Of a stretch of DNA of 64,000 bases, positions 10,053 through 64,000 are shown piece after piece. Positions within the stretch are counted from its first letter, which is position 1; the number at the start of each line of letters is the position of its first letter. Source of the stretch: a virus. The stretch is from positions 1 to 64,000 of the IMG/VR virus record IMGVR_UViG_3300042337_000070. One strand, written 5' to 3'. Position numbers and translations under genes: made by a program. Under the pieces are notes generated by a model. That model worked only from the letters and a program-made list of their open reading frames with translations. It was not told the DNA's origin and searched no databases.

Positions 10053-10057
10053 AAAAC

Positions 10058-10132: not shown

Positions 10133-10139
10133 ATAACTC

Positions 10140-10630: not shown

Positions 10631-10638
10631 ATTATATA

Positions 10639-10714: not shown

Positions 10715-10718
10715 GTAT

Positions 10719-10794: not shown

Positions 10795-10798
10795 ATAT

Positions 10799-10876: not shown

Positions 10877-10884
10877 ATAAACTT

Positions 10885-10962
10885 TGGAGTTGCTGATGGG
10901 ACTCGAACCCACATTCAAAGGTTTTGCAGACCTTGTCGTATCCAATTCCGACACACAGCAAC
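10885..10962 (-). tRNA. tRNA-Cys (GCA)
   Basis: Acceptor GTTGCTG/CAGCAAC, loop CTGCAAA, T73 (CysRS determinant U73), CCA. Confidence 0.92.
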
Positions 10963-10969
10963 AGTTATC

Positions 10970-11164
10970 TTATGCTATCTTATACTCCTTATAACGTCTC
11001 TGCAACATTACTGATGCCTTGCCGTTATACTTCTGTTCCTTGAACGACTCATACTTGTCCCAAGCAGGACTAAAGGTGTTGAAAGTTCCCTTATACAGGA
11101 CCTTGTTGCCCTGAGACAACTCAACTACCCAGTATGATTCTCTCTTTACCATTTCTTCCTTCAT
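10970..11164 (-). CDS. Unknown 64-aa basic protein
   Basis: ATG at 11164 with GGAGAG eight bases upstream; a further in-frame ATG four codons later is possible. Lysine- and aromatic-rich (YWVVELSQGNKVLYKGTFNT), reminiscent of small beta-barrel phage proteins but not assigned. It sits in the tRNA cluster under its own sigma70 promoter. Confidence 0.65.
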   Translation of the reverse strand: MKEEMVKRESYWVVELSQGNKVLYKGTFNTFSPAWDKYESFKEQKYNGKASVMLQRRYKEYKIA

Positions 11165-11194
11165 TGCTCGCACTCTCCGAAGTTGATGTTGAGT

Positions 11195-11223
11195 ATTATA
11201 TAGTTCACAGAAACGAAAGTCAA
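11195..11223 (-). promoter_or_regulatory. Sigma70-type promoter (TTGACT-17-TATAAT)
   Basis: -35 at 11218-11223 and -10 at 11195-11200, driving the 64-aa gene and the tRNAs beyond it. Confidence 0.8.
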
Positions 11224-11254
11224 GCAGTTTTTTTACATTTTTTCAACTTTTTTT

Positions 11255-11346
11255 TGGTAGGGATGCTCGGAATCGAACCGAGTCGAGAACGGTAATCTGC
11301 CGCTAGAAGGTTTATAAGACCTCCCTGTGTACCAACACCCACCCCT
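11255..11346 (-). tRNA. Class II tRNA with anticodon TAT (Ile AUA by code, Leu-like body)
   Basis: Acceptor AGGGGTG/CATCCCT, D-arm TGTTGGTACACA, anticodon stem GAGGT/ACCTT, loop CTTATAA, a 20-plus base variable arm, T-arm CTCGG-TTCGATT-CCGAG, A73, CCA. The body is that of tRNA-Leu, whose usual loop would be CTTAAAA, but the anticodon reads TAT. Confidence 0.75.
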
Positions 11347-11351
11347 GTAAC

Positions 11352-11428
<77 letters not shown>

Positions 11429-14934: not shown

Positions 14935-15120
14935 TCATGCTACTTCCTTGAAATGCTTCTGCAACTCAGGTGATAGTTTCTTTAGTAGATCACCAGGGAT
15001 GCCAACCCGAACGATCTTTGCCAGTTCAATAACATTGTTACTATCAATAGTCATATCAGGATCAAACTCATACAGTCGTGCTGGCGAGTGCTTAAGTGAT
15101 TCGTCTTTTTTCTTACTCAT
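14935..15120 (-). CDS. Unknown 61-aa protein coupled to DNA polymerase
   Basis: The start at 15120 overlaps the polymerase stop as ATGA with GGAGGA upstream; the longer in-frame version would lie inside gp43. Lysine-rich N-terminus (MSKKKDESLKHSPARLYEFD) and a helical C-terminus. Function unknown. Confidence 0.7.
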   Translation of the reverse strand: MSKKKDESLKHSPARLYEFDPDMTIDSNNVIELAKIVRVGIPGDLLKKLSPELQKHFKEVA

Positions 15121-17672
15121 GAAAAGAAGTCCTCCAGGCTTGCGGTTCTTTCTGCTTTCCAATTGATTGCTTCCAGAATGATCTTCAAAGGTTCCAGAAA
15201 CGACTTATCGAATTGCATATTGTAATCGATATACTTGTCCAAGTCAAACTCTTTTGGTATACCACCTTGTGGGAATGCAATCACGTTTGACTGCACAGTG
15301 TTTGGTTCTTTGAGGAAGATAAACTTGATCTTCTCTCCGCCTTGAATCAGCGGATACTTACCAGAAAGTTTATGCTCAGATAGAAAGTGATTATATACCA
15401 GAGAGCCACGCACATGTATAGGGGTGCCGGACCCATAGATAGTTTTCTTATCCGCATACTTACCGAGACCATTAACGCCCCGAGGGAACGCAATGTCGGC
15501 AAGAGGTAGTGTTTCAAACTCTTTACGAAACTCTTGAACGAACTCTTGAACAGCGGTTTCACCTGAGTCAAAGATAACATCAATTACCTCTTTTAATTTC
15601 TCTCTACATGCTGATGGTGTCGAACTCTTGACCATTTCAAGACCCATAACTTTCTTCTTAGGTTTTGCATACTGCACACCTTCGGAGTTATGGACATTGA
15701 GAATGTAACGTTTCTTAGCGGTCCAGATAGCCTTATCAGCTAGGACCTCACGCTTCATTACAATCTTTTGCTGATATACGTTAGTGTAGTCACCAAGTTC
15801 TGCACAAGCCTTATCAATAACAGGTTGGATTCCAGTCTCACAAACCTTATCCAGGAATGAGATACCTCTTGCTGCTCCAATAGATTGTGAGTCCTTGCCC
15901 AAAGTTTGTAGAACAAGGTCGTTAAGATTGAGATACACCGAGTCAGTATCGACCGCAATGACATAATCTTTCTCCGTCTTCAATAGTTTATTCAGATAAT
16001 TGTTTAGTGTAGTTTCGATCCATCTGATGGATAACTGTCCTGTAGTCGTAACAGCAATCGCATTCCTTAGATCAAAGAAACGAAAGAACTGTGAACCCAT
16101 AGCGCCATAGAGAGAGTTGAGCGATACCTTTTTCGAGAGCTGTAGGTTCTTGAACTTGGATATTTTATTCTTGATCTCTTTTTTCTTTTGAGAATCTGTT
16201 TCTCGTTCATACTCTTGCTCCGCTTCAAGCATTGCCTTCTTATAGACTTTGCGATCATTGAACATCTTCTCAACCATTTCAGGCATGAATCCTTGCTTGT
16301 CACGGCGATAGAACTGACCATTTGCCGTGAGACAAACATTCTCATCCTTCAATGCTGATAAGTCTATAGACTTGTCGAGAAGTTTATCAACAGTGACACC
16401 AGCGGCAGTAATAGACCGCATAGCAGGGCTATAAGAATCAGATTCGATAATCGTCTCGGGAGAGATATTTGACCCCATAATAACAGACGGATACTCTGAG
16501 TTAACGTCGAAAGAAGCCACCCAATCATGAAAACCAATAATAGGATCTTTAACGTAGGCTCCGACATATGCTGCCTCCTTTTCATGTCTTTCAATTGGAG
16601 GAACAACCACGTTCTTTGCTTTTAGATGATGAAAACAAATGATGTCCCACATACGAACTTGTGCAAATACATCTTCGTAATTGCACTTGTTATCATATGA
16701 AAGAGTTAGAGCCAATTCAATGAACTTACCCTTTTCATCGATACGGTCTACCAGTTCAACGTCTTTGATATTATACTCAATAAACTTTTGGTAATCCTCT
16801 TTGAAAAGGTTGTGAAGAGAACCGTATTCCTCATATGAAAGTTTACGCTCACCCAATTCAATGTGAGCAATGTTGTCTAGACGATATGATTCCTGTGAGT
16901 TACCTCCAGGAGCATATCTTCTATATAGATCAATCATATCTAGAGTTGCAATACCGAGCAGACTATAGATATTTGTCTTCTTACCAAATCCAGTTTCAAC
17001 AGTCCTTGGATTTACAACGCCCCAAGGAGAAAGGCGCCGAGACTCTTTCTCACCTAATATCTTAGCGATACGATTGACAAGATATGGAATATCGAACTTC
17101 TCTACGTTCCATCCAGTCACAATATCAGGACATTTATGTTCCCAGAAAGATAGGAACTGTTTGATTAGATCAATCTCATCCTGACAACGCTTATAGTCAA
17201 TATCATGACGATGCGGTTTATAGTGTCCACATCCCCATGTGTAAAAGATATTCTTTATCTTTACAGTGATAGCCGTCAGCGGTTCTTGTGCTAGTTCCGG
17301 ATCAGGGAACCCACTCTCAGAACCGACTTCGATATCGATGTTAGCAATACAAATGTTGTCAATGTTCCACTCTACAACACCAGGATGCTCATCGGCGATG
17401 AAGCAATACTGATAACGCTGATTACCATAAATCTTGAAGTTGTCAACGTCTTCATACTGTTTGATAAAGTCACGGGTCTCCCTAATGCTGCCGGGCTTAA
17501 TCGGACTAACATGTTCACCATAGATCGTTGTGAACTTGGTGGGAGTCTGAGAAGGAACAAAAAGCGTAGGGTAATAATCTACCCTACGCTTGTAACTGTT
17601 TCCATCCTCAATGCCACGATACAGGATTTTACCACCCCATACTTCAACATTGGTATAGAATCTATTTGTCAT
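15117..17672 (-). CDS. 43: Family B DNA polymerase (gp43)
   Basis: 851 residues, slightly shorter than T4 gp43. The exonuclease motif I (NIDIEVGSES, Asp113/Glu115) is present, as are polymerase motif A SFDVNSEYPSV, motif B KKVSLNSLYGAMG and motif C VDTDSVYL. It is the replicative polymerase with proofreading. It is followed by an ATGA-coupled small gene and preceded by an Sm-like gene, as in several T4-like phages. Confidence 0.96.
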   Translation of the reverse strand: MTNRFYTNVEVWGGKILYRGIEDGNSYKRRVDYYPTLFVPSQTPTKFTTIYGEHVSPIKPGSIRETRDFIKQYEDVDNFKIYGNQRYQYCFIADEHPGVVEWNIDNICIANIDIEVGSESGFPDPELAQEPLTAITVKIKNIFYTWGCGHYKPHRHDIDYKRCQDEIDLIKQFLSFWEHKCPDIVTGWNVEKFDIPYLVNRIAKILGEKESRRLSPWGVVNPRTVETGFGKKTNIYSLLGIATLDMIDLYRRYAPGGNSQESYRLDNIAHIELGERKLSYEEYGSLHNLFKEDYQKFIEYNIKDVELVDRIDEKGKFIELALTLSYDNKCNYEDVFAQVRMWDIICFHHLKAKNVVVPPIERHEKEAAYVGAYVKDPIIGFHDWVASFDVNSEYPSVIMGSNISPETIIESDSYSPAMRSITAAGVTVDKLLDKSIDLSALKDENVCLTANGQFYRRDKQGFMPEMVEKMFNDRKVYKKAMLEAEQEYERETDSQKKKEIKNKISKFKNLQLSKKVSLNSLYGAMGSQFFRFFDLRNAIAVTTTGQLSIRWIETTLNNYLNKLLKTEKDYVIAVDTDSVYLNLNDLVLQTLGKDSQSIGAARGISFLDKVCETGIQPVIDKACAELGDYTNVYQQKIVMKREVLADKAIWTAKKRYILNVHNSEGVQYAKPKKKVMGLEMVKSSTPSACREKLKEVIDVIFDSGETAVQEFVQEFRKEFETLPLADIAFPRGVNGLGKYADKKTIYGSGTPIHVRGSLVYNHFLSEHKLSGKYPLIQGGEKIKFIFLKEPNTVQSNVIAFPQGGIPKEFDLDKYIDYNMQFDKSFLEPLKIILEAINWKAERTASLEDFFS

Positions 17673-20723: not shown

Positions 20724-20797
20724 TGGCGCCCCTAGTGGGAATTGAACTCACATTGGTCGTTTTAGAGACGACTGCATTGCCATTATGCTATAGGGGC
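20724..20797 (-). tRNA. Suppressor-type tRNA, anticodon CTA (reads UAG)
   Basis: Complete 72-nt cloverleaf plus CCA: acceptor GCCCCTA/TAGGGGC, D-stem GCAT/ATGC, anticodon stem GTCGT/ACGAC with loop CTCTAAA, T-arm GTGAG-TTCAATT-CCCAC (one A-C mismatch), G73. The perfect five-bp stem fixes the anticodon as CTA, which pairs with amber UAG. G73 and the anticodon are one base from Gln(CTG) and one base from Trp(CCA), so Gln or Trp charging is most likely. It stands alone, about 9 kb from the main cluster, with a late-type box directly upstream. Confidence 0.85.
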
Positions 20798-22745: not shown

Positions 22746-22781
22746 GGGTTATTTTATTTGAGGAATACTTTGATGTGGAAG

Positions 22782-22809
22782 AAAAGGGGTGCCCCGTTTA
22801 GGACACCCC
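22782..22809 (-). terminator. Terminator after pmoC
   Basis: Minus strand GGGGTGTCC/GGGCACCCC stem (one wobble) followed by TTTTC, eight bases after the pmoC stop. It separates pmoC from the next sigma70 unit. Confidence 0.8.
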
Positions 22810-22816
22810 GTAGTTT

Positions 22817-23587
22817 TTATTCGGCTAGAAGGGCAACACCCTCTCTACCGAGAAGCGAGCGAATACGCATTAGGATCTGAAGAACAACACCAAAAACACC
22901 CAGTGCCATCCAGCCGAAGAACACGAAGCCCCAATGTAGTGGTGCAACAAATAGTTCTTCCATGAACCAGAACGTATGACCCCATTCGTTTAGACCAACG
23001 TTTGGAATAATCATAAATGGACCAATCGCTACAATCAAGAATGCTAGAGAGAAACCCTTAGCAAAGTATGGAATGCGTGTCTTAGCATAGAAGAATGCAC
23101 CAACAGCAATGATTGAATAGATTGGATAGCTCATGTAGAACTCGATAATATGACTTGGAGTAAAGTCAGTATCACGAATAACTGTCATGTGCCAGGTGCC
23201 GTCCTGTTCTGTAAAGAAAGAAGCACCCCAGTAGATTGCCACTGCATATACAACAAGCCACTGGACTAGAACAACAAGACGACGCATTTCTTCACGGGCA
23301 GTCAAGCCAGCAAAGTCACGGGTTCTTGTCTTCCAAAGATAACCTGCAAGAGCAAGTCCTGATACTAGTTCTAGTGGGATTTCTGTCCAGAGAATGCTCA
23401 TCCAATATGTCTGAAACTCTGGTGCAAACGAATCAAGGCCAGCACGCCAGCCATACACTTGTTCATAAATGCGAACGATTAGATAGAAAACATTTAGAAG
23501 GCCTAAGCCAATCCACATGCCTCGAAGGTCTACGACCTCATTTACGTCGGTTGCCACGGCCTTAGCCGATTGATTTACAACGCTCAT
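22817..23587 (-). CDS. pmoC: Particulate methane monooxygenase subunit C (PmoC)
   Basis: 256 residues, full length. Hydrophobic segments match the PmoC helices. Asp129-x3-His133 (EQDGTWH) and His146 (FTPSH) reproduce the conserved Asp/His/His copper site; Asn200-x3-His204 (NEWGH) and His218 (APLHW) reproduce the second Asn/His/His site proposed for PmoC. The sequence is closer in style to alphaproteobacterial PmoC than to AmoC. pMMO oxidises methane to methanol in intracytoplasmic membranes; subunit C exchanges within the trimer. Start supported by TAGGAGTGAGTAT. It stands as a monocistronic unit: late-type box, leader hairpin, gene, terminator. No pmoA or pmoB is near, so it must act with host subunits. 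Codon use is AT-rich like the phage, implying a long stay in phage genomes. Confidence 0.95.
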   Translation of the reverse strand: MSVVNQSAKAVATDVNEVVDLRGMWIGLGLLNVFYLIVRIYEQVYGWRAGLDSFAPEFQTYWMSILWTEIPLELVSGLALAGYLWKTRTRDFAGLTAREEMRRLVVLVQWLVVYAVAIYWGASFFTEQDGTWHMTVIRDTDFTPSHIIEFYMSYPIYSIIAVGAFFYAKTRIPYFAKGFSLAFLIVAIGPFMIIPNVGLNEWGHTFWFMEELFVAPLHWGFVFFGWMALGVFGVVLQILMRIRSLLGREGVALLAE

Positions 23588-23612
23588 ATACTCACTCCTA
23601 TTTGAGATTATT

Positions 23613-23641
23613 GACCGGTCTCCGGGATAGGATACCCGGTC
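23613..23641 (-). other. pmoC leader hairpin
   Basis: GACCGG/CCGGTC outer stem, with an alternative inner CCGGG/CCCGG stem, between the late-type box and the pmoC ribosome site. Confidence 0.5.
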
Positions 23642-23644
23642 ATT

Positions 23645-23651
23645 TATTTAG
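23645..23651 (-). promoter_or_regulatory. Late-type promoter box for pmoC (CTAAATA)
   Basis: Minus strand CTAAATAAATG, about 60 bp upstream of the pmoC ATG. No TTGACA/TATAAT pair of equal quality is seen in the 140-bp gap. Confidence 0.55.
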
Positions 23652-23727
23652 TAGTCACCATCGACTACTTGACGCTATAATGACACAAATTCTGTTGTGA
23701 GAACAGTCATTTTTAGACAATCTGCAT

Positions 23728-23988
23728 TCATTTTTTGACAGTGTTCATTTTTCTTTTTAGGAGATACCAGTTTAGTCTAATTAATCCTATTCCTCGATTG
23801 ATGTAGTCGGACAAGTCCATGTCACGCTTGTTTAGTCTCAAACGCATCTGGTAGTTCTCTTCCTCTAGTTTAGCAATGGTATACGCTGCCCTACGAGGAA
23901 GAGAGTCTGCATGGACGTTGTTAGATTTCTCTATCCAGTCAGCAAGGGCATTGAGTTGCCCTTGCATTTCTTTATATTCGTTTCTCAT
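23728..23988 (-). CDS. Unknown 86-aa protein
   Basis: Helical, charged (LNALADWIEKSNNVHADSLP; AKLEEENYQMRLRLNKRD), coiled-coil-like. Overlaps the 59-aa upstream gene as ATGA. No function assigned. Confidence 0.65.
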   Translation of the reverse strand: MRNEYKEMQGQLNALADWIEKSNNVHADSLPRRAAYTIAKLEEENYQMRLRLNKRDMDLSDYINRGIGLIRLNWYLLKRKMNTVKK

Positions 23989-24164
23989 AGTTCATCAGTT
24001 ATCTTATAAAGAGCGTGTGGATACCACTCCATATCCCGCCAGTAATATCCATGACATGATTTATCTTCTTCATTCCAGTAACCTTCGATCCATCCATGTT
24101 TCATTTTAGTGAGGTATTTTTCGCCATCAACTGCTTCTTCAAAAGGCACCATTATAAGTTTCAT
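23985..24164 (-). CDS. 59-aa protein gene
   Basis: ATG at 24164 lies one base after the acyl-CoA dehydrogenase stop (TGATATG), and the stop overlaps the next ATG. The product is aromatic-rich (KHGWIEGYWNEEDKSCHGYY). Both couplings support it. Function unknown. Confidence 0.65.
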   Translation of the reverse strand: MKLIMVPFEEAVDGEKYLTKMKHGWIEGYWNEEDKSCHGYYWRDMEWYPHALYKITDEL

Positions 24165-24165
24165 A

Positions 24166-25875
24166 TCAAAACTCTGCTCCCATCATTACACCAGAACCAT
24201 TACGAATGCGTTCTAGTAAGAATCGTGTTTCTGAAATTATACGCTCCATGAAGTAAAGAGCATTGTCACGGCGATCCTTGTCGTCAGACTTTGATACAAT
24301 TCTAACATGAGCCATTCCAAGCAATACAAGTCCAAACATCTTCATGTAGTCATAAGATGCAGAACCAGCATTGTTAGGATTTGCCATAGCATTACCAACA
24401 AGCCATTCTGTTGCCAATCTTAGGTCATTCAATGCAGCAGTTACAGGTTGAACAATGATATTGATTTCTGCCTCGCCATAAACACCGTTTATAAACTCTT
24501 TGCTATCATCCATGAACTTACGAATAGCACGACCCATGTCCTTTGGCAACTTACGACCAACAAGATCAAGAGCCTGAACGCCATTAGTTCCTTCATAGAT
24601 TTGAGCAATACGAGCATCACGAACAATCTGTTCCATACCCCATTCTCTAATATAACCATGACCACCAAAGACTTGCTGCGCCTTTACAGCGTTTTCAAAT
24701 CCATAGTCAGTAAGCACACCCTTTAGAACTGGAGTTAGTAGCCCGAGACGATCTTGTGCATCCTGACTTTCATCATCGCAAAGCATCGCCGCTTCCAATA
24801 CTAATAGACGGGCAGCTTCATTGATACAACGAATATCCATAAGCATACGGCGAACATCAGGGTGATGTATAATACTACACGGAGAGCGAACAACATTCTT
24901 GTCCAATCCAGTTGGATTGAGAACAGTACCTTGATGTCTTTCTTTAGCATATTCCAAAGCATTTTGATAAGCCAACTCCGATTGTGATAGTCCTTGAATA
25001 GCAACACCGAGTCTTGCCTCATTCATCATAACGAACATGGCATTTAGACCCTTGCCACGTTCACCAACAAGAAATCCAGTAGCACCGTCATAGTTCATAA
25101 CACAAGTTGGCGAACCATGAATACCCATCTTTTCTTCAATAGAACCACAAGTTACTTTATTACGAATACCAGAAAACATCTTAGGAACAATGAAAAGACT
25201 GATACCCTTTGTTCCTTCTGGATCGCCTTCAATACGAGCAAGCACAAGATGGATAATGTTATCTGCTAGATCATGTTCACCACATGAAATGAAAATCTTC
25301 TGACCTGTGATATAAAATTTATGAGAATAATCGTTATCATCTTGAGGAACAGCCTTTGTCTTGATCAGACCAAGGTCAGTACCACAATGAGGCTCTGTTA
25401 GATTCATTGTGCCTGTCCATTCACCAGATGCCATTCTAGGAATGAAGAATTGCTTTTGTTCTTCTGTTGCTACTTTGAGGAGTGCCTGAATAGCTCCACG
25501 AGTAAGCCCAGGGCAAAGAGAAAAAGCCATGTTAGACGAGGATACAAACTCGTTGACGCTAGACGCAAGTGCGTATGGTAAACCTTGTCCACCATACTGT
25601 TCAGGAACCGATAAACCAAGCCAACCTCCTTCTGTAAACTTTTGCCAAGGCTCGTAAAAGCAAGTAGGAACCTGAACAGTGTCAGTCTTCTCATCAGGTC
25701 CAATTTGGAAATGTCTAAAACATCCTTGCTTATCACCCTTTTGATTAGTTGGCGCAATGACTTCCTCACAGAGTTTTGCTGCCTCTGTAAGGATTGCTTC
25801 TGTGTTCTCGTTTTCAAAACCTAGAACATCTCGTAATAGAAAGATTGTTGATTCAGTTGGTGCGGTATATCTCAT
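24166..25875 (-). CDS. Acyl-CoA dehydrogenase
   Basis: 569 residues with all ACAD parts: helical N-terminal domain, middle beta domain (MNLTEPHCGTDLG, FISCGEHDLADN), C-terminal helical domain with QQVFGGHGYIREWGMEQ and the QIYEGTNGVQ segment carrying the likely catalytic Glu (about 428), plus the C-terminal extension of the long (~590 aa) subclass that includes 3-methylmercaptopropionyl-CoA dehydrogenases. It oxidises acyl-CoA to enoyl-CoA with FAD. It is intact, with GAGGACTATC before its ATG, and coupled to a small upstream gene. Very unusual cargo for a phage; substrate unknown. Confidence 0.92.
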   Translation of the reverse strand: MRYTAPTESTIFLLRDVLGFENENTEAILTEAAKLCEEVIAPTNQKGDKQGCFRHFQIGPDEKTDTVQVPTCFYEPWQKFTEGGWLGLSVPEQYGGQGLPYALASSVNEFVSSSNMAFSLCPGLTRGAIQALLKVATEEQKQFFIPRMASGEWTGTMNLTEPHCGTDLGLIKTKAVPQDDNDYSHKFYITGQKIFISCGEHDLADNIIHLVLARIEGDPEGTKGISLFIVPKMFSGIRNKVTCGSIEEKMGIHGSPTCVMNYDGATGFLVGERGKGLNAMFVMMNEARLGVAIQGLSQSELAYQNALEYAKERHQGTVLNPTGLDKNVVRSPCSIIHHPDVRRMLMDIRCINEAARLLVLEAAMLCDDESQDAQDRLGLLTPVLKGVLTDYGFENAVKAQQVFGGHGYIREWGMEQIVRDARIAQIYEGTNGVQALDLVGRKLPKDMGRAIRKFMDDSKEFINGVYGEAEINIIVQPVTAALNDLRLATEWLVGNAMANPNNAGSASYDYMKMFGLVLLGMAHVRIVSKSDDKDRRDNALYFMERIISETRFLLERIRNGSGVMMGAEF

Positions 25876-26063
25876 GATAGTCCTCTATGATCAAACTCAT
25901 CAGTGTGTTCAAGATTAGTCTTCTCTTTCTTGTCTAGATAGTCCATCCATTCTAAGACAGACTTATAAGAATGACTCTCAACATTCTTGTCGTAAGAATA
26001 CTGGACATTGTGTGATATTGTTGCTTCAATGAGCAATCTTAGTTCTTCCCACTTGTTTGTCAT
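25872..26063 (-). CDS. Unknown 63-aa protein
   Basis: Acidic, aromatic (MTNKWEELRLLIEATISHN). Overlaps both the methyltransferase stop and the dehydrogenase start by four bases, tying the dehydrogenase to the glycan-cassette transcript. Confidence 0.65.
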   Translation of the reverse strand: MTNKWEELRLLIEATISHNVQYSYDKNVESHSYKSVLEWMDYLDKKEKTNLEHTDEFDHRGLS

Positions 26064-26608
26064 TTCGTAGCCTCAATTTTTAAAACAGCATCTCTTGCAG
26101 GATACGGATTTCTTTCATCATCAACTCTAACAATTTTCTGAAATCCTGCTTCACTTAGCATCTTACTTAGAGACTTTTCACTAAACCCATTGATATGTCC
26201 CATGCCAGGAATCTTATGTTCTTCTGGGTGACGCCAACCACCAAAGAGATAATCCATAGCATTGTCCCAGGGGTCTTCGTTCTGTCTTAGCCAATCGACA
26301 TTGGCATTCTCGTTCCACGTTCCTTCAACAATCTGTGTCATGATCCATAGAACATCAGGACATGTAATCTCAAAGCGACCACCCGGCTTTAGAATGCGAT
26401 ATATCTCAGCAAGAACCTTTGGTGCATCAAACTTAGTAAGATGCTCGATAACGTCACCAAGATAAATCTTGTCTGCGCTATTGCTCTTGTAAGGATACGG
26501 GAAATGGCGCAGGTCGTGAACCTTGGTCACGCCTGCCCACTGATGCATATCCATTCTATCTGTTGAGTCCGGTTTAGGATGAGGACCCGAACCAATATCA
26601 AGAATCAT
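26060..26608 (-). CDS. Class I SAM-dependent methyltransferase
   Basis: Start at 26608 inside TAATG overlap with the epimerase stop. 182 residues with motif I MILDIGSGPHPK, acidic motif II, YLGDVIEHL and RILKPGGRFEITCPD, a methyltransferase-11-like Rossmann fold. In this cassette it probably methylates a sugar or glycan intermediate. Confidence 0.8.
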   Translation of the reverse strand: MILDIGSGPHPKPDSTDRMDMHQWAGVTKVHDLRHFPYPYKSNSADKIYLGDVIEHLTKFDAPKVLAEIYRILKPGGRFEITCPDVLWIMTQIVEGTWNENANVDWLRQNEDPWDNAMDYLFGGWRHPEEHKIPGMGHINGFSEKSLSKMLSEAGFQKIVRVDDERNPYPARDAVLKIEATK

Positions 26609-27603
26609 TACTTTTTCTCCAATACAAACTTTAGACACATGCGAATAGAATCATCTACCTTCATATTTGCCTTCCAACCAAGGTCTCTCTCAGCCTTCTC
26701 GACATCAGGAATACGAACCCTAACATCGTTTTCATATTCTCCAATTGTATTAAACAAAGGATAATAGTTAGGAAACAAACGATACTCATTAGCAGCAATG
26801 TCAATGATCTTTTCCGCTAGAAGACGCATGGAAATAGGTTCAGCATTACCTAGATTGTATATCTGATTATCTGTTTTGTCAATAAAAGAATAATCAGCAA
26901 TGGCCTGTGCAACCTCATCAATCCAGGTAAAGCAACGAATCTGCATACCGTCGCCGATGATCGGAAGAGGATGCTTTCTATCTACTACAATATTCTTGAT
27001 ATAGTCTGCAAAGACATGAGAGATTCCAACTTCTTCTGTTTCACTCTTTTCAAATGGTGTGATAATGTTGAATGGGCGCCAGATAGTAAACTTTAGACCA
27101 TGCTGCTTTAGATATGCCTTAGAAACACGCTCGCCGACAAACTTAGATAGACCATAGTCTGTGTATGGTGCTGGATAACTATCCACGATAAACTCTTCTA
27201 CAGGGAGACCTACCTTCTGTGGACAATTCTCATAGACCATTGATGAAGAGATATAAACAACCTTCTTTACATCATTAGCAACAGCAGCACGAAGCACATT
27301 GTCATGTAGTGTAATATCTTTATACATTTCACCACAATACTTATTGAATCCACCGACACCATAGATCGTTGCGGCAGCCTGAATGATATAATCAGGCTTT
27401 GTATTTTCCATTAGAGAATTTACTGACAACTTGTCAGTCAAGTCACACTTGATAAACTGATAGTCTGTTCCTGCGTGACCAAGACGCTCACCATATCGTG
27501 CTAGATTGTCCACACCAATAACAACATGACCTTTAGCAAGCAGCTTTGGAATCACTGCCTGCATTAGCGAACCCTCTGAACCCGTAACCAAAATCTTACT
27601 CAT
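26608..27603 (-). CDS. NAD-dependent sugar epimerase/dehydratase (extended SDR)
   Basis: 331 residues. N-terminal Rossmann ILVTGSEGSLMQ, the catalytic YxxxK (YTDYGLSKF) preceded by SSS, and the IWRPFNIITP substrate loop place it with UDP-/GDP-sugar epimerases or dehydratases. It likely makes an activated sugar for the adjacent glycosyltransferases. Confidence 0.85.
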   Translation of the reverse strand: MSKILVTGSEGSLMQAVIPKLLAKGHVVIGVDNLARYGERLGHAGTDYQFIKCDLTDKLSVNSLMENTKPDYIIQAAATIYGVGGFNKYCGEMYKDITLHDNVLRAAVANDVKKVVYISSSMVYENCPQKVGLPVEEFIVDSYPAPYTDYGLSKFVGERVSKAYLKQHGLKFTIWRPFNIITPFEKSETEEVGISHVFADYIKNIVVDRKHPLPIIGDGMQIRCFTWIDEVAQAIADYSFIDKTDNQIYNLGNAEPISMRLLAEKIIDIAANEYRLFPNYYPLFNTIGEYENDVRVRIPDVEKAERDLGWKANMKVDDSIRMCLKFVLEKK

Positions 27604-28838
27604 AGATCGTCTCCCAACTTATAAATTCCATTCTTTGTTTTCTTACTCAATTCCCACATCTTCCATACATCAGCGATTACACAATTAGGTCCAAACATAC
27701 CGGGTGTATAATGCTCTACGAAAAATGTATGTGGAGTCATAACGACAACTGCATCATATTCGCTAAAGTCGGGCATTAATGTCTCTGGCATAACATACGG
27801 ATCAATAATGAATGCTGCTGCACCGTGCTTGTTACAAACCTTTCGCATCTTATATGAAAGGCTATTTCTTGTGTCGTCACAATCTTTCTTGAACGCTGCG
27901 CCTAGAATAAGAACCTTATTCAGCTTCGGTGAAAGTTTCGAGATAGACTGCCAAATATAGTCTGGCATGCCTTCATTGATAAGAAAACTAACTTGAATAA
28001 GGTCAGCAAAAGGTACACTATCAAGCAGAAAGCGACCATCTTTGAAGAGACAAGGACCACCGACATTTGGTCCTGGAAGCGGGACATCCATTCTCTCATA
28101 TCCATAGTTCGCAGACTTGATAACCTTTTCAATATTGACTCCATGCTTATCTCCAATCATATACATCTCATTAGCAAATGCAAACGAGACATAACGCCAC
28201 ATGTTTGTCATCAGCTTGGCAATCTCTGCTTCTCTTGGTGTAAGAAAGAGAGAAGATTCATTCATGAATGTTTGTAGAAAATCTACAGTCTGATTATATG
28301 ACCAAGAAGAGAATGCGCCAACAAGTGCAGGAAGATTCTTTGTTTCTTCGATACCCTTTGTCTGTAATACACGCTCAGGACAGAACACAAGAAAGAAGTC
28401 TTCACTTTCTTTTAGACCTGTATTCTTTTCAATTCTATCTCTAATAACTTCTGTAGTGCCGGGAGAAACAGTTGATCTAAGAATGATTAGAACACCTTTT
28501 TTCATTGAATGTATAAGGATATTATCAATAAAGTCAAACAGACTATCCAAACGAGGATTGTTCTCTTCATCAACCGGTGTGCCAAGCATGATCGCCACAA
28601 CATCGCTTTCTGCGATATGTCTTGGACTCGTTGTAAAAGAAAGACGCTTTGTTTCAAACAAATGCTTTCTTAGCAATGCTTCTGCACCGTGTTCAACATA
28701 AGGCACAGTGCCTTCATTCAATATAAACACAATCTCATCATTTAGGTCATAACCACATACATCATGACCTGCCTCTGCAACCACAAGAGAGAAAGGTAGT
28801 CCAACATGTCCACCTGCACCAACAACTGTCACTTTCAT
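27600..28838 (-). CDS. Nucleotide-sugar 6-dehydrogenase (UDP-Glc/ManNAc DH family)
   Basis: 412 residues: NAD-binding VVGAGGHVGLPFS, central MTNMWRYVSFAFANE, catalytic Cys in NVGGPCLFKDG and C-terminal LGAAFKKDCDDTRNS. These enzymes oxidise the sugar C6 alcohol to a uronic acid in two steps. Starts with a four-base overlap on the glycosyltransferase stop. A phage copy suggests synthesis of an acidic surface glycan or modification of virion glycans. Confidence 0.88.
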   Translation of the reverse strand: MKVTVVGAGGHVGLPFSLVVAEAGHDVCGYDLNDEIVFILNEGTVPYVEHGAEALLRKHLFETKRLSFTTSPRHIAESDVVAIMLGTPVDEENNPRLDSLFDFIDNILIHSMKKGVLIILRSTVSPGTTEVIRDRIEKNTGLKESEDFFLVFCPERVLQTKGIEETKNLPALVGAFSSWSYNQTVDFLQTFMNESSLFLTPREAEIAKLMTNMWRYVSFAFANEMYMIGDKHGVNIEKVIKSANYGYERMDVPLPGPNVGGPCLFKDGRFLLDSVPFADLIQVSFLINEGMPDYIWQSISKLSPKLNKVLILGAAFKKDCDDTRNSLSYKMRKVCNKHGAAAFIIDPYVMPETLMPDFSEYDAVVVMTPHTFFVEHYTPGMFGPNCVIADVWKMWELSKKTKNGIYKLGDDL

Positions 28839-29791
28839 CTTAGAGTCTCCAGTAAAACATCTTCTATATCATTACAGGTATCTTGAATGGTATGATTGCA
28901 CATAACATAGTTGTATGCGTCTTCTACCTGACAATCGTTATACTCATAGTTTCTCAAAAGTTCCATGAGTTCCTGTTCATTTTGATATGTAGTACCATAA
29001 TAGCACATATCTTTCGCTCCTGCAATAGCTCTTGCATACCAAGGCGTCCTATTCATCATTGCTTCCAAGAGGACTAGACCGAAACCTTCCTCGTAGGAAT
29101 TTAGAATGTAGGCATCCGCCTCGCCTATAGCAAACAATATATCCGTCTTACTTTTCCCAAAGAAGCATTTGACATTGTGAGTATCGGTAGGCATCAGATG
29201 TTGCTCGCCGTATCCGTATAGATGCAACTCAGCATTAGGAATGTTTGCTTTTGTAAATGCTTCTGCGAGAGGTGTCATGGCCTTGTGCTCCCAGAAACCA
29301 CCGGCTGAAACAAACGTTAGTTTATCATAGTCTTTCTTTGCTCTCATATACTGTAGAGGTGGAATGCCATGACGAATGCGGCGGCCTTTTTCCTCAACAT
29401 CATACTTTCTTAGATGTTCTACGTCCATAGAAGTAGAGTATCCGAGAAAACGATGCTGTCTTAGACCATTCACACAGATTGGACTATCGCTTGGTTTGAC
29501 GATTAGATATAGAACATTCTGTTTATTCTCTAGAAGTGGACCAGCGTTTGCATGAATGATGTTTTGTGAAATACAATCCCCACCATGAACTACAATCAAG
29601 TCCCATCTTTGATTGAGGACTTGTTGATAGTCATTAGAGACTTTTACACCATTATATTCACCCTGATGCTCATGAGCCAATACAAAAACTTCATGTTGAC
29701 GTTTGAGCATTTCCTCAGCCATGTTTTGCACATAGTATTCGCTACCACCAGGAAATGGCGCATATCTGTGAACTACAAACAATACTTTCAT
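28835..29791 (-). CDS. GT4-like glycosyltransferase
   Basis: 318 residues. N-terminal FVVHRYAPFPGGSEYYV and the C-terminal EEGFGLVLLEAM E-x7-E motif mark the GT-B family 4. ATG at 29791 overlaps the upstream stop as ATGA. Confidence 0.85.
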   Translation of the reverse strand: MKVLFVVHRYAPFPGGSEYYVQNMAEEMLKRQHEVFVLAHEHQGEYNGVKVSNDYQQVLNQRWDLIVVHGGDCISQNIIHANAGPLLENKQNVLYLIVKPSDSPICVNGLRQHRFLGYSTSMDVEHLRKYDVEEKGRRIRHGIPPLQYMRAKKDYDKLTFVSAGGFWEHKAMTPLAEAFTKANIPNAELHLYGYGEQHLMPTDTHNVKCFFGKSKTDILFAIGEADAYILNSYEEGFGLVLLEAMMNRTPWYARAIAGAKDMCYYGTTYQNEQELMELLRNYEYNDCQVEDAYNYVMCNHTIQDTCNDIEDVLLETLR

Positions 29792-30669
29792 CAATCACCT
29801 ATCACAAATGTTTCCCACCAGTCACACAGATTGTTCATGTCTGTAAACTCGTTAGGAATATTATTCTTGAACGCCGGTTGTTCTATAATATCTAGATACT
29901 CTCTTTTACCGGCTGGTGAGTCTAGATGAATAATATAGTCTACCAATTTGTTAAATGTACCATGATCTGATGCATTGATGAATGCTTTTGGATTGAAATC
30001 TCTACCTACAGTAGGCGAACCCCAATAGATTGGCATTGTCTTTACCTGAAACGCATTGAGAATCTTTTCTGTCACATAACCAGGATAAGAACCATTCTCA
30101 AAGCAAATATTGAAACGATAGTTGTTCAAGAATGCCAGTTTGTATTCTAACTTATCTCTAGGAAGAACATGACCGATATTGTTTAGATGCGGTCCACCTG
30201 ATGCTACTCTCTTATACTCATTGACAAAATGAAAGGCTTTGTTTCTCATATCTTGATTAGGATTAGAAACTACGAAAGAACAAAAGTCACGATTGTTATA
30301 AAGTTCTTCATAGTCTATTATCTCAGGACACAACCAATGATAGTCGTCGGTCCATCCCTCTACAACTGCTCCCCACATGTCAATAACATAGAGGGGCAGA
30401 CGATAATGCCTTGGACTATTCTCATGATCAAATGTCATAGCATATTGACATTCATCCCAACGTGGACGAACATTTTCACCAGTATAGAAAACTTTCTTGA
30501 CTTCTGGGCCGAACCTGCGGTGAGATTGTCCATAGACTCCCTCACCGTAAATTAGATAGTCTGGATTAGTATCGTCACGAATTATGTGGAAACGTTTACC
30601 TAGAGCATAGGTAAAGAAGTTGATTGCTGTTGAGAATGTATCAGCAAAACCTAATTTCACGATTTTCAT
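29791..30669 (-). CDS. GT10-like (fucosyltransferase-type) glycosyltransferase
   Basis: 292 residues ending with the family-10 donor-site motif FENGSYPGYVTEKILNAF and IYWGSP, as in bacterial alpha-1,3/4-fucosyltransferases. It likely transfers fucose or a related 6-deoxysugar from a GDP donor. Confidence 0.83.
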   Translation of the reverse strand: MKIVKLGFADTFSTAINFFTYALGKRFHIIRDDTNPDYLIYGEGVYGQSHRRFGPEVKKVFYTGENVRPRWDECQYAMTFDHENSPRHYRLPLYVIDMWGAVVEGWTDDYHWLCPEIIDYEELYNNRDFCSFVVSNPNQDMRNKAFHFVNEYKRVASGGPHLNNIGHVLPRDKLEYKLAFLNNYRFNICFENGSYPGYVTEKILNAFQVKTMPIYWGSPTVGRDFNPKAFINASDHGTFNKLVDYIIHLDSPAGKREYLDIIEQPAFKNNIPNEFTDMNNLCDWWETFVIGD

Positions 30670-31274
30670 TACTTATACCAGAAGAATGCGGAGTTAAGTG
30701 ATAGGTTGATTGGTGCAGTAATCTTATTCTTCACTCTAAAGTCATCAACAGCTCGCTTCACAGATTCTAAAGCAGTGTAATCGTGACCACAGAAGAAACC
30801 ACCCTTCTTCAAGAAAGGATAATACAGTTCACAGTCTGCTATGGTCGCCTCATATGAATGATCGCCATCGACAAAGATAAAGTCAAAAGGTTCCTCGACA
30901 CCATAATCAATGATAGACTTCATCTTTTCAGCAGCAATAACAGAACGTTCACGAATCATCTGCACCCTCTCACCATATGGCTTTAGGTTCTCTTGTGCAA
31001 TCATCATAAACTTGTCAACTACTTCCTGTGTAATCTCACCATTCCAGTCACCGTATGCCTTGTAAGGGTCGACTGTATATATTTTAAGAATGTTAGGGCA
31101 TCTGTCTAACAGAAATGCAGTAGACTCAGCACGACAGGTACCAATCTCTAAACCAACTAGATCAGTTCCTAGACGCTTGATATAAGGAGCAAGTCCTCTT
31201 GTTGATACCCAATCATAAGGCCACTTGTCTCCAAGTTCCTTGATTGTCATAAAGTCTTCATCAGTTAGTGCCAT
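30669..31274 (-). CDS. Class I methyltransferase (Methyltransf_24-like)
   Basis: 201 residues with GLEIGTCRAESTAF (SAM site), FDFIFVDGDHSYEAT and KKGGFFCGHDY, typical of methyltransferases found in surface-polysaccharide loci. Overlaps the upstream gene by 14 bp. Confidence 0.8.
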   Translation of the reverse strand: MALTDEDFMTIKELGDKWPYDWVSTRGLAPYIKRLGTDLVGLEIGTCRAESTAFLLDRCPNILKIYTVDPYKAYGDWNGEITQEVVDKFMMIAQENLKPYGERVQMIRERSVIAAEKMKSIIDYGVEEPFDFIFVDGDHSYEATIADCELYYPFLKKGGFFCGHDYTALESVKRAVDDFRVKNKITAPINLSLNSAFFWYK

Positions 31275-32172
31275 ATTTCACCTCAATCATTTGCTTCCAT
31301 GCTGGAACACGATCCCATTGGTGAAGAACCGTAACCACATCATCATTAATATATATCTTGCTGTCCTTGACGCTGTATTGAACGTCATTGATAAACTCAA
31401 CCTTCATGTTAGGATTCTGACGATACGCTTCACCAATACCACCTGATCCTGCTTCGATAGCAGGCATTGAAGTACCTGCATGAAGCACCCAACCGTGTGC
31501 AGGATGAGCAAACAGAGTTGAATACTTATAGACTGTCATATCAAGCATGATGTTCATAGCTGCCTGATCCGGTCCTCCGCCACCTTCGACATGAGGATTA
31601 AGACCCTGACAAATCAGATACAGGTTGAGGCAAAAGTCTTTGACGCTTTCCATATCACCAGCGATAACACCGGCACAGAAGATCGGATCATCCTTCTTAA
31701 TATCATAGAAGTATTCACCAAAAGACTTGCGAAGGTTATTATTTCCCCATGGTTCATTAGCGTATGTGAGGTTCTCTGTACCTACAATTAGGTCGAAACC
31801 CTGTGCAAAATACTTATTGAGCCACTGAGTTGGATCTTCCTGAAACACAACGTCTCTAACATCAGTGATAATAACACGATCCACCATCTGTGGATCATCA
31901 AGCATCTTTAAAAAATGATGAATGTGAATGAAGCGATTGACCATGATGCTACCAGGAACATCATATGTAAACCCTGTAGTCTGATCAAATCCTGATGCAC
32001 CAATTAGCATGAATCCTTTTTGTGTAAGAATGTCTGCCGTATCTTTATTCATGTTGTAAACGATAAGAGCCTTGTATCCATCGAAACCTGATTGCTCAAT
32101 CGAGTTTGCCCAATACTTAATCTTATCCCAGTCGTAATGATCTACGACACCTACAATCAGGTCCTTAGCCAT
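31261..32172 (-). CDS. GT-A-type glycosyltransferase-like protein
   Basis: 303 residues; a DVRD acidic motif (IITDVRDVVFQ) in the position of a GT-A DxD, and a GGGGPDQAAMNIM segment typical of nucleotide-diphospho-sugar transferases. The exact family is uncertain. GGAGG precedes the start. Confidence 0.65.
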   Translation of the reverse strand: MAKDLIVGVVDHYDWDKIKYWANSIEQSGFDGYKALIVYNMNKDTADILTQKGFMLIGASGFDQTTGFTYDVPGSIMVNRFIHIHHFLKMLDDPQMVDRVIITDVRDVVFQEDPTQWLNKYFAQGFDLIVGTENLTYANEPWGNNNLRKSFGEYFYDIKKDDPIFCAGVIAGDMESVKDFCLNLYLICQGLNPHVEGGGGPDQAAMNIMLDMTVYKYSTLFAHPAHGWVLHAGTSMPAIEAGSGGIGEAYRQNPNMKVEFINDVQYSVKDSKIYINDDVVTVLHQWDRVPAWKQMIEVKYGTN

Positions 32173-32912
32173 GGGAACTTACCTCCATAATATGCCTCTT
32201 GTGTTTTGTTACCTTCAATAAAGAACTCTTCGGTAACTGAATTAGGATTACCATCTAGACGATAGCAAAGAGTATGCTTGCCGTTCGTATCATAGTTAGC
32301 ATGGTCTTTGACTGAATATAAAAACTGTCTATCACCACCCCATCCAGAGTGCCAGAAATGACATGTTCTTTGAATGAACTCTCTCTTGAAACAGAAAGAA
32401 GATGTATCGATTAGATAATGCTTACCATGAGGAGAGTGGCGAGATAGAAAGATTTCCCACTTGCCAAGACTCTCACAGTTATCGTCACAAAGATACTCTT
32501 TATCAGGTGAAAAAATCTTGCGAAGTGAATAAGAAAAGTCTAGGTTCTTTGCTTCGATAGTCTTGACTAGTGTTTCAACATGGTCGGGTTCATACCAGTT
32601 GTCTTCGTCTAGAAAAAGAATGTAATCTGAGTTGATTAGATGTGGATAGGCAGCATAGATACGATGACCATAAAAGTTGCCACCTGTCTTGCCCGTATTT
32701 TCTGGCGCTGCAACGAATGTGATTCCATCACTATATGCTACACCTATACCACATGCATCAACAGCATTTTGCCATTTTTCAGGTCCATCTACCACAACAA
32801 CATGCTTACACTTGTAAGTCTGTTTCTTTACAGATTCAATAGCGTCTAATAGTTTAGGAGAACCGATTGTAGGTGTGATAACTGTAACTGGTTTTTCAAT
32901 CACTAGATTCAT
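32157..32912 (-). CDS. GT2-family glycosyltransferase
   Basis: 251 residues with VTVITPTIGSPKLLDAI, VVVDG and the DxD-like FLDEDNWYEPDH. The first gene of the glycan cassette in transcription order, behind a late-type box and two leader hairpins. Confidence 0.85.
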   Translation of the reverse strand: MNLVIEKPVTVITPTIGSPKLLDAIESVKKQTYKCKHVVVVDGPEKWQNAVDACGIGVAYSDGITFVAAPENTGKTGGNFYGHRIYAAYPHLINSDYILFLDEDNWYEPDHVETLVKTIEAKNLDFSYSLRKIFSPDKEYLCDDNCESLGKWEIFLSRHSPHGKHYLIDTSSFCFKREFIQRTCHFWHSGWGGDRQFLYSVKDHANYDTNGKHTLCYRLDGNPNSVTEEFFIEGNKTQEAYYGGKFPWLRT

Positions 32913-32995: not shown

Positions 32996-33544
32996 TTATT
33001 TAGGTGACATACTATCTGCGATCTTCTGTGCCATTGAACCCCAGTTCTTAGCACTTTCGTTCAATAGTTGCTTTGTCGTTTCCTGAACACCAAATGGATC
33101 TAAGATATCAATCTTCTTAGTTTTCTTCTCCTCAGGAACAAAGCGTTCAAGGAAGATTTTGAGCATACCGTTGGCGAGTTCAGCATTCTTCACTTCCACT
33201 GTATCTGCAATGGTGAACTTCCGAGTGAATGCTCGATTGGCAATACCCTTATGAAGGTAGTCGCCTTCTTCGGTTTCGGTACTGCCTGTGATTGTTAGAA
33301 CATCGCTCTTTAGTTCAATATCAAGATTATGCTTGCCGAAACCAGCAACAGCCATCTCGATCACATAATGTTCATCATCAATCTTCTTTACATTGTAAGG
33401 AGGGTATGCTGGAATCTTTGGTAGGTAATCATTTGCTTCTGCGATGCGTTGGAGCACCTGTTCAAATCCAATAGCACCCTTTGAGATATCATTAGCAAAG
33501 GTGAATGGATCAAACCAGAACTTATCTGTATTCTTGTTAGTCAT
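32996..33544 (-). CDS. Small heat-shock protein (Hsp20/alpha-crystallin)
   Basis: Start at 33544 (AGGAG upstream) gives 182 residues. The alpha-crystallin domain is visible: VIEMAVAGFGKHNLDIEL, DVLTITGSTE, and LANGMLKIFLERFVPEE with the final strand, IbpA-like. It acts as an ATP-independent holdase. sHSPs are frequent in T4-like cyanophages and may aid virion protein folding. It has a sigma70 promoter and a structured leader. Confidence 0.9.
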   Translation of the reverse strand: MTNKNTDKFWFDPFTFANDISKGAIGFEQVLQRIAEANDYLPKIPAYPPYNVKKIDDEHYVIEMAVAGFGKHNLDIELKSDVLTITGSTETEEGDYLHKGIANRAFTRKFTIADTVEVKNAELANGMLKIFLERFVPEEKKTKKIDILDPFGVQETTKQLLNESAKNWGSMAQKIADSMSPK

Positions 33545-33549
33545 ATGTT

Positions 33550-33604
33550 TTCTCCTATAGTTAGCGAGAAGTAAAGAGAATGGTACCGTCGTGGCACCAT
33601 TCTC
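33550..33604 (-). promoter_or_regulatory. Structured sHSP leader, possible RNA thermometer
   Basis: The minus-strand leader forms a 9-bp stem GAGAATGGT/ACCATTCTC at its 5' end (33576-33604) and a weak 5-bp stem TTCTC/GAGAA (33550-33570) that covers part of the AGGAG ribosome site. Rhizobial sHSP genes are known for ROSE thermometers, but this sequence is not an obvious ROSE match. Confidence 0.4.
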
Positions 33605-33608
33605 AAAC

Positions 33609-33638
33609 ATTATATAGTAAACTTCACAGGTTTGTCAA
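33609..33638 (-). promoter_or_regulatory. Sigma70-type promoter (TTGACA-18-TATAAT)
   Basis: -35 at 33633-33638 and -10 at 33609-33614, ahead of the sHSP gene. Confidence 0.8.
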
Positions 33639-60234: not shown

Positions 60235-62022
60235 TCAATATTCTCTTGTTGGCTTCTTCCCTACTAATAGATCCTTGATTTCTTGACCTGTTAGAGTTTC
60301 ATATTCTAGCAGACCTTGTGCTAGTGTGTCAAGGTCTTTTCTCTTTTCGGTTAGAATCTTCTTTGCCATGGTATATCCTTCCTCGACGAGGCGCTTGATT
60401 TCCATATCGACAATCTTTTGTGTCTCTTCGGCAATCTTAGCAGAATGAAATACATCAGCATTTGGTTCTGTATAAGCCATACGTCCTAGAAGTGGTGAGA
60501 AACCTAGCTGAGTAACCATTGCTCTTGCGAGTTTAGTTGCTTGCTGAATATCTCCTGCGGCGCCAGATGTAACTCTATGTTCACCAAAAATGATTTCTTC
60601 TGCTACACGTCCACCCATAGCCATAGCAAGTTGAGCAATCATTTCTTCGTAAGACTGTGAGATTTGGTCACGATCTGGAATTGATTGAACCATACCCAAT
60701 GCTCGTCCACGTGGTATGATAGTTGCCTTATGAATTGGGATCGAGCCAGTCATGTTGATAGAAACGAGAGCATGACCACCTTCATGATATGCTGTCATCT
60801 TCTTTTCATCATCAGTCATAAGAAGCGTTCTGTGTTCGGCGCCCATCATGATCTTATCACGGGCATCTTCAAATTCTTGAAGTGTAACAATCCGCTTTGA
60901 ACGGCGAGCGGCAAGCAATGCTGCCTCATTAACAAGATTTGCTAGATCGGCGCCAGAAAAGCCAGGTGTTCCCTTTGCGACAGTTCTAATATCAACATCA
61001 GGTCCAATTGGAACTTTGCGTGTGTGAACTTTTAGAATCTTCTCACGACCAACAAAGTCTGGATTAGGAACTTGAACCTGTCTATCGAAACGACCTGGAC
61101 GAGTTAGGGCTTTATCTAGAACATCTACACGATTGGTAGCAGCAATGACGATAACACCTTCGTTATCATTGAATCCGTCCATTTCTACTAGCATTGCGTT
61201 TAGAGTTTGATCACGTTCGTCATTACCACCCATACCTGTAGCTCTTGATCGACCAACGGCGTCAATCTCATCAATGAAGACAATGCAAGGTGCATTCTTC
61301 TTTGCTTGATCAAACATATCTCTAACTCTAGATGCACCAACACCAACAAACATTTCTACGAAGTCTGATCCAGAAATACTAAAGAAAGGAACACCTGCTT
61401 CACCAGCAACTGCCCTAGCTAGAAGAGTTTTACCTGTGCCAGGAGGACCAACGAGCAATACACCCTTTGGAATTTTACCACCAAGACGTTCAAACTTTTG
61501 TGGATTTTGTAAAAACTCTACAACTTCCTGCAAGTCTTCTTTTGCTTGATCAACACCAGCAACATCTTCAAATGTCTTTAGTGTAGAAGACTCAGTAAGC
61601 AGTTTTGCTTTTGACTTACCCATACCCATCATTCCACCAGGACCACCGGCCGAACGGCGAGATAGCCACACCCATAGACCAAAGAATAGAAATACTGGTA
61701 GAAGATTAATAAGTAGATTTGTCCAGAATGATGCTTCTGTGTTATCAGCCTTAACAGTAATATTAACCTTGTGTTCTTCTAACTTAGGTAGAAGAGAAGA
61801 AAGGCCAGCAACGGTAGTTCTAAACTCTCTGTTGTCTGCGTTAAAGTGTCCTGTTAGCTGATTTCCTGCTACATAAACATCATGAACGTTGTTGCGTTCA
61901 ACCTGACCGAGAAAGTCGGAATAACTAATTTCATTTGTTAGTTTGTGTTCGCCTGGCATAGCCATCCAATACAGGGCTACGGCCACAGCGAAAAAGATTA
62001 TAATAGGTAACGTTTTCTTCAT
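60235..62022 (-). CDS. ftsH: FtsH ATP-dependent membrane protease
   Basis: 595 residues: N-terminal transmembrane helix ([16 protein letters not shown]), a periplasmic region, a second helix ([14 protein letters not shown]), AAA+ core with Walker A GPPGTGKT (192-199), Walker [15 protein letters not shown], and the zinc site HEGGH (413-417). All catalytic elements look intact. Shorter than bacterial FtsH only at the C-terminus. It sits between gp46 and gp47 with AAGGAT before its ATG. It could remove damaged membrane enzymes, such as pMMO, or host defence or regulator proteins. Confidence 0.95.
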
Positions 62023-63356: not shown

Positions 63357-63568
63357 TATCGTTTACCTTTTGGAAAGTGTAACCTTGGTGGAGCATCACC
63401 CATTTCTCTATCATAGTCGATAAGTGCTTCATCAATAACTTGCTTGATACTTGCTAGCCTCCTACGATAGTTACCACGAATATGAACTCTTTCTTGCTTG
63501 TTCTTCAATGTTTCAATCAATGTTTGAACCTGAAATGGTACCTCAAATTGATTCTGTTCCTTGCTCAT
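63356..63568 (-). CDS. Unknown 70-aa protein
   Basis: Start at 63568 (GGAG upstream) inside the end of gp55. Helical, with VQTLIETLKNKQERVHIRGN; a basic C-terminus (PPRLHFPKGKR). Adjacent to the late sigma factor, so it could act in transcription, but there is no direct evidence. Confidence 0.6.
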   Translation of the reverse strand: MSKEQNQFEVPFQVQTLIETLKNKQERVHIRGNYRRRLASIKQVIDEALIDYDREMGDAPPRLHFPKGKR

Positions 63569-64000
63569 CTTCATTCTCCACGAATTTTTCAAGTCCTTCT
63601 TTCGCCTGCTTACGCTTCTCTTTTTTAAGACGTTCTTTGTTCTCAAAGTTCTTAATGAACTCATTCAAGTTATCATACATAGTAGACGTAATCATATGAT
63701 TGTCGTCACCATCTACCATAAGAGAAGCATCAGCGGTATCTAGAACAGACTCTTGAAACTTTTTATACATTATATAGCGATTCTTTTCTTCCTTAGCAAT
63801 ACGTCTATGGAAAGCAAAGTTTGTGATTTGAGTGAAGTATGCAAAGGGATTCTGACTGATGGCAGGGTTGAAATTATCAAAGTAAAGAAAACAGTTTTCT
63901 AGTGCATCCGACTTCATTTCGTCGATGAAAGAATAATTCATGAAGCGAGGCTTACGAGCGAGGTTCTCGGTGATAAGCCAAATACACTTACCACAATACT
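63543..64000 (-). CDS. 55: Late-promoter sigma factor (gp55), N-terminus cut by window edge
   Basis: The frame is open past the internal ATG to the right edge: about 151 residues visible. WLITENLARKPRFMNYSF and then QNPFAYFTQITNFAFHRRI match the gp55 core (NPHAYITQ in T4), a sigma-region-2 relative, followed by a charged tail. With gp45 it directs RNA polymerase to TATAAATA-like promoters; matching boxes occur across the window. The true start lies beyond 64000. Confidence 0.88.
   Translation of the reverse strand, partial: YCGKCIWLITENLARKPRFMNYSFIDEMKSDALENCFLYFDNFNPAISQNPFAYFTQITNFAFHRRIAKEEKNRYIMYKKFQESVLDTADASLMVDGDDNHMITSTMYDNLNEFIKNFENKERLKKEKRKQAKEGLEKFVENEDEQGTESI

Follow-up and report, generated by a model that had tools for sequence, protein, structure and literature searches.

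In the present study, an intact pmoC gene, encoding subunit C of particulate methane monooxygenase (pMMO), was found in the DNA of a T4-like phage. We consider it a host-derived auxiliary metabolic gene, whose late-made product probably replenishes or replaces the host subunit C in pMMO. The window analyzed here is a stretch of 64,000 nucleotides that forms part of an IMG/VR virus record (IMGVR_UViG_3300042337_000070) of 107,942 bases. The initial annotation had given the exact coordinates of the gene, to which it must be added that pmoC sits on the minus strand. The gene and its immediate neighbors are the following:

22817..23587, minus strand: pmoC, particulate methane monooxygenase subunit C, intact, 256 aa
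22290..22745, minus strand: conserved phage gene downstream of pmoC
23728..23988, minus strand: 86-aa conserved protein of unassigned function, between the acyl-CoA dehydrogenase and pmoC
24166..25875, minus strand: acyl-CoA dehydrogenase with a PF12806 C-terminus; best solved relative 6ijc

The gene starts with the ATG at 23587, stops with the TAA at 22819-22817 and has 256 codons. It is the only pmoC in the whole record and the genes that flank it in the window are phage genes, although the record may be incomplete; the description of pmoC as phage-encoded, a stand-alone gene among phage genes in a virus record, was therefore borne out. A search of IMG/VR gave 117 pmoC stretches, of which 80 were kept, and none of the 80 phage loci showed a pmoA close to pmoC. 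The INPHARED phage collection gave no pmoC match.

The product is a full-length, intact PmoC, as had been read from the letters. In Pfam, PF04896 (AmoC) matches it over its full length (residues 6-248, model positions 2-244 of 245, E 9e-109) with 362.9 bits against a cut-off of 26.7, and two NCBIfam models, TIGR03078 (333.4 against 280.6) and the subunit C model NF041641, also scored above cut-off. The best solved relatives are the PmoC proteins of Methylocystis sp. Rockwell, Methylocystis sp. M and Methylosinus trichosporium OB3b, and the nearest of the searched contigs reached at most 93% identity. In a tree of 122 sequences, built without AmoC sequences, the window PmoC fell in a phage-only clade nested in Methylocystaceae PmoC. 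This phylogeny had been proposed by the initial annotation, which had also named AmoC or an unrelated family as the alternative; AmoC membership is ruled out by the placement in the tree and by the far lower scores of solved AmoC structures (208-218 bits, versus 493-503 for PmoC, with the phage protein as query against the PDB). That the 34 phage sequences of alphaproteobacterial type form a single clade was not rejected (p-AU 0.92), and pmoC may have been captured once from Methylocystaceae. Among the contigs, one binned as Elusimicrobia (L106) carried a Methylosinus-like pmoC with pmoA, which is probably a binning error.

The phage gene has been under strong purifying selection: for the 290 phage pairs whose dS lay between 0.05 and 1.5, the median dN/dS was 0.067; in the comparison with hosts, synonymous sites were saturated. 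Its GC3 is 0.40, against 0.38 in the other genes of the window and 0.75-0.82 in hosts. Phage pmoC is thus codon-ameliorated, and it is an old gene that the phages have maintained. These data bear on the possibility that pmoC is a recent capture of host DNA or a functionless chimera of assembly. Such a chimera could be imagined, since pmoC is known to act as a repeat, shared by phage and host, at which assemblies break (PMC7674155), but the same neighborhood of pmoC recurs in independent contigs, and the phage-like GC3, the dN/dS of 0.07, the phage-only clade and the phage-type signals of the gene itself all speak against it. Its probability is practically negligible, and the comparative data refute chimera or passenger DNA, unless the reads themselves were to reveal a mis-assembly.

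Both metal-site triads noted initially are present and equal the CuC and CuD ligands of Methylococcus capsulatus Bath. The phage PmoC keeps Asp129/His133/His146 at CuC and Asn200/His204/His218 at CuD; the equivalents in M. capsulatus Bath are Asp156/His160/His173 and Asn227/His231/His245 (PMC12576850), an offset of 27 in numbering. All six ligands were retained across every aligned phage PmoC. The fold was examined with an AlphaFold2 model of the isolated chain, built from 42 sequences (mean pLDDT 72), which matches chain C of 7s4m with TM 0.82/0.87. The model is weak in its N tail and in the two loops of the metal sites (129-142 and 194-218); because these loops are of low confidence in the isolated chain, the model alone does not demonstrate a competent site. 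The retention of the ligands also bears on a very different role, in which the phage protein would compete with the host subunit C and lower or stop methane oxidation, or tie up copper, and so divert reductant or oxygen. Interference, too, would be expected to keep the assembly contacts, but an inhibitor would have no need of both metal sites, and high replication estimates were obtained for the Lake Rotsee methanotroph predicted as host of active pmoC-phages (PMC7674155); we regard interference as very unlikely.

A divergent PmoC-like paralogue was observed in Methylocystis and other alphaproteobacterial genomes (L148, L151, L152, L153, L154 and L160), with no pmoA nearby. In this protein T/H/N replaces D/H/H at CuC, and N/H/H is kept at CuD. 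It is thus a natural CuC-less subunit and bears on the question of which copper site is catalytic.

Compared with the PmoC of Methylocystis sp. Rockwell, whose structure is known, the phage protein is 87% identical, with 33 differences over 254 positions. Twenty-five of the 33 sit in the N tail (12 of 19 positions), loop 87-97 (7 of 11) or the C tail (6 of 16), and residues 214-240 show none. This concentration, together with the stand-alone PmoC copies that hosts carry, is what would be expected if the phage PmoC were a specialized isoform, comparable to the stand-alone copies of Methylocystis, that, instead of making good losses, alters the stability, metal use or regulation of pMMO through its divergent tails and loop 87-97, a role proposed by Chen et al. 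2020 (PMC7674155). The tails are, however, the most variable regions among phage PmoC proteins and among bacterial copies likewise, so that the divergence of the phage tails may reflect relaxed constraint. We consider a specialized isoform possible but unlikely.

The signals that frame pmoC were consistent with late expression. The late-type box, the leader hairpin and the terminator that the initial annotation had described were all found:

23651..23668, minus strand: inverted repeat GTAGTC-N6-GACTAC, abutting the late box; its arms co-vary in relatives
23645..23652, minus strand: T4-late-type promoter box ACTAAATA, 58 nt upstream of the pmoC ATG
23613..23641, minus strand: 5' leader hairpin GACCGG...CCGGTC, with an alternative inner hairpin CCGGG-TATCCTAT-CCCGG
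23595..23599, minus strand: Shine-Dalgarno AGGAG of pmoC
22776..22809, minus strand: intrinsic terminator after pmoC, a 10-bp stem (22786-22809) followed by a T tract

The ACTAAATA box also precedes pmoC in L004, L007, L011, L012 and L027, and GCTAAATA stands in its place in L001. The inverted repeat lies upstream of the expected start of the pmoC transcript. Folding was stronger than background for both the leader hairpin (z -2.4) and the terminator (z -4.1). In seven distinct related leaders, two-sided changes preserve the pairing of the hairpins at 5 pairs, and the covariation score was reached by 0 of 500 shuffles; the pairing of the alternative inner hairpin is likewise preserved across relatives. 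A pseudoknot between the loop UCCUAU of the leader and the Shine-Dalgarno AUAGGA was also considered. This pairing is possible in the related leaders but received no support from covariation, because both partners hardly vary. Rfam holds no family for the pmoC leader. A search for further leaders with a loose DNA pattern gave chance matches, and a tighter pattern returned pmoC leaders and unrelated sequences, nothing else. The portal gene is also preceded by a leader of box, hairpin and Shine-Dalgarno, which makes a general late leader the simpler explanation. In a second phage lineage, pmoC is preceded by a canonical TATAAATA box and a different leader; late-type control thus recurs from different parts.

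The distribution of the box in the record was then compared with the gene content. On the coding strand CTAAATA is present 22 times, and the other strand has none; for [AC]TAAATA, which combines CTAAATA and ATAAATA, the numbers are 33 versus 3. Of the 33 coding-strand boxes, 17 are found within 80 nt of a start codon (background 8.5%), and the genes so marked include those for scaffold, maturation protease, portal, tail tube, sheath and head-tail adaptor. The upstream box that pmoC has in common with these structural genes is evidence for its belonging to the putative T4-type late promoter class of the phage. The expected reader of the box and the DNA polymerase of the phage were located as follows:

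63543..64000, minus strand, running on to 64118 in the record: gp55-like late sigma factor, expected reader of the late box
15117..17672, minus strand: T4-type DNA polymerase gp43; its closest matches, at about 50%, are from marine T4-like cyanophages

The T4-like core that had been claimed for this DNA was borne out. In the window it comprises gp43, gp41, UvsX, gp44, gp62, RegA, gp45, gp46 and gp47, and the rest of the record adds UvsY, gp55, the major head protein, scaffold, protease, portal, sheath and tube.

Comparison of the loci showed that the block around pmoC is conserved and also mobile. In the lineage of the window the order is acyl-CoA dehydrogenase, (86-aa gene), pmoC and gene 22290, and two contigs, L003 (174,499) and L007 (172,364), share this locus. 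In the second lineage, whose gp43 is about 45% identical to that of the window, the order is (dehydrogenase, 86-aa gene), pmoC, HSP20, (FtsH) and gp43. The 86-aa gene is found near pmoC in several phage lineages, and neither Pfam nor PHROG gave a match for its protein. The acyl-CoA dehydrogenases of the phages group together as a single clade next to the enzyme of Methylocystaceae; in L011 this gene has been relocated away from pmoC. In a close relative of 169 kb (L176), in whose record no pmoC was found, the homologue of gene 22290 stands directly behind the dehydrogenase and the site is closed up. In the G078 record just the two ends of pmoC remain. Since related phages lack pmoC or hold fragments of it, the gene is dispensable, and the close pmoC-less relatives provide natural with/without pairs for measuring its effect.

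A member of the second lineage, L009, shares 92.8% DNA identity with the window across 2,041 bases of the dehydrogenase and the 86-aa gene and 87.4% across most of pmoC, yet its gp43 protein is just 46% identical to that of the window and its pmoC is preceded by the other type of leader. The matching stretches lie at 1-3863 of L009 and 22814-25883 of the window, and the pmoC leader and N terminus are outside the match. Such a near-match despite a distant gp43 indicates a recent exchange of the block of dehydrogenase, 86-aa gene and pmoC between distant phages. Recombination of this kind between phages was suspected by Chen et al. (PMC7674155). As a separate observation, a cassette of sugar genes at 26060-32912 (minus strand), with an NAD-dependent epimerase, a UDP-glucose dehydrogenase-like protein, glycosyltransferases, a fucosyltransferase-like protein and methyltransferases, is conserved upstream of pmoC in several relatives.

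Two further genes of the window were considered in relation to pmoC:

32996..33610, minus strand: HSP20; in the second phage lineage the homologous gene comes immediately after pmoC
60235..62022, minus strand: FtsH membrane protease with Walker motif

Phage FtsH falls into a single clade, nested within the FtsH proteins of Methylocystis and its relatives. The setting of pmoC with FtsH and acyl-CoA dehydrogenase had been put forward as worth comparing; the genes are real, but FtsH lies 37 kb from pmoC in the window. The setting was overstated: acyl-CoA dehydrogenase and HSP20 in the vicinity of phage pmoC had been described by Chen et al. 2020, and FtsH is not linked to pmoC in this phage and occurs also in a phage that has no pmoC. 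The order pmoC, HSP20, FtsH was seen in twelve second-lineage loci, of which some are near-identical; in the window these genes are dispersed. By analogy with the FtsH-driven replacement of D1 in photosystem II, PmoC, HSP20 and a Methylocystis-derived FtsH might act jointly, late in infection, to remove worn or host subunit C from pMMO and to supply it anew, which we consider rather unlikely. FtsH does not serve as a marker of pmoC-phages: in the comparison, which included a narrow scan of IMG/VR with specific seed peptides, two pmoC-phage records of 162-169 kb were without FtsH and the pmoC-less 169-kb relative had it, so that any functional linkage of pmoC and FtsH is putative.

A parallel is offered by the T4-like cyanophages, which carry psbA (D1), a subunit of a host membrane enzyme that is thought to sustain energy metabolism. 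As in the window, whose gp43 is closest to that of T4-like cyanophages, a T4-like phage carries a subunit of a membrane enzyme of its host. The enzyme is different, and a need of PmoC for D1-like turnover would be hypothetical. By description, the viruses of ammonia-oxidising archaea that carry amoC (cited in PMC7674155) are also alike in having subunit C only of a copper membrane monooxygenase; they differ in host domain and enzyme.

PmoC, FtsH and the acyl-CoA dehydrogenase all point to Methylocystaceae, so that a type II methanotroph is the most likely host as judged from these genes. In such a host, phage PmoC would be made late in infection, enter the membrane and pair with the PmoA and PmoB of the host, where it would replenish or replace the subunit C already present. 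Methane oxidation and its supply of reductant would then persist while host gene expression declines. Replenishment or replacement is favored by the intact gene, the ligands, the fold, the phage clade, the purifying selection, the late-type signals and the lack of pmoA nearby. Against it stand the dispensability of the gene and the late timing, which gives a new membrane enzyme little time to pay off. We infer that the gene is expressed in the phage, that a hybrid pMMO is assembled and that the phage benefits. If the hybrid enzyme forms, methane oxidation in type II methanotrophs would be sustained by their lysing phages until late infection, with a bearing on the amount of methane that escapes from lakes.

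It had been stated correctly from the outset that pmoC is known in phages of methanotrophs. The pmoC-phages were described by Chen et al. 2020 (PMC7674155), with LM_1 and LM_3 of Lake Mendota among the Methylocystis-type examples, and pmoC-carrying viruses have been found again since. Like the phage studied here, they are large T4-like myophages with tRNA arrays and a stand-alone pmoC, about 90% like host PmoC, with no pmoA/B and with HSP20 and acyl-CoA dehydrogenase near pmoC. Late-like expression was reported in the same work, and in Lake Rotsee the pmoC of other such phages was co-expressed with structural genes; the single-subunit cargo and the terminal divergence of phage pmoC were also already published (PMC7674155). 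The late-box class, the covariation of the leader, the FtsH phage clade, the closed-up pmoC-less site and the block exchange with L009 are absent from the main text of Chen et al., FtsH is not mentioned in the main text of three pmoC-phage papers, and no literature on FtsH in methanotroph phages was found. To the published pmoC-phages we therefore add the evidence for a late promoter class, the leader covariation, the closed-up site, the block exchange and a phage-specific FtsH that is sometimes near pmoC.

Several minor features of the window were also observed. An array of 27 tRNA genes at 6658-11428 (minus strand) covers most amino acids. Outside this main array, at 20724-20797 (minus strand), lies a tRNA with the anticodon CUA, an amber suppressor type that scores 64 bits with the tRNA model, and a tRNA with this anticodon is found near the same place in L027 and L034. 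Recoding of TAG was unsupported, as TAG remains in use as a stop. At 50036-53616 (minus strand), an AAA protein of PHROG 249 ('porphyrin biosynthesis') lies beside a large PHROG 459 'peptidase', a pair to be compared with cyanophages.
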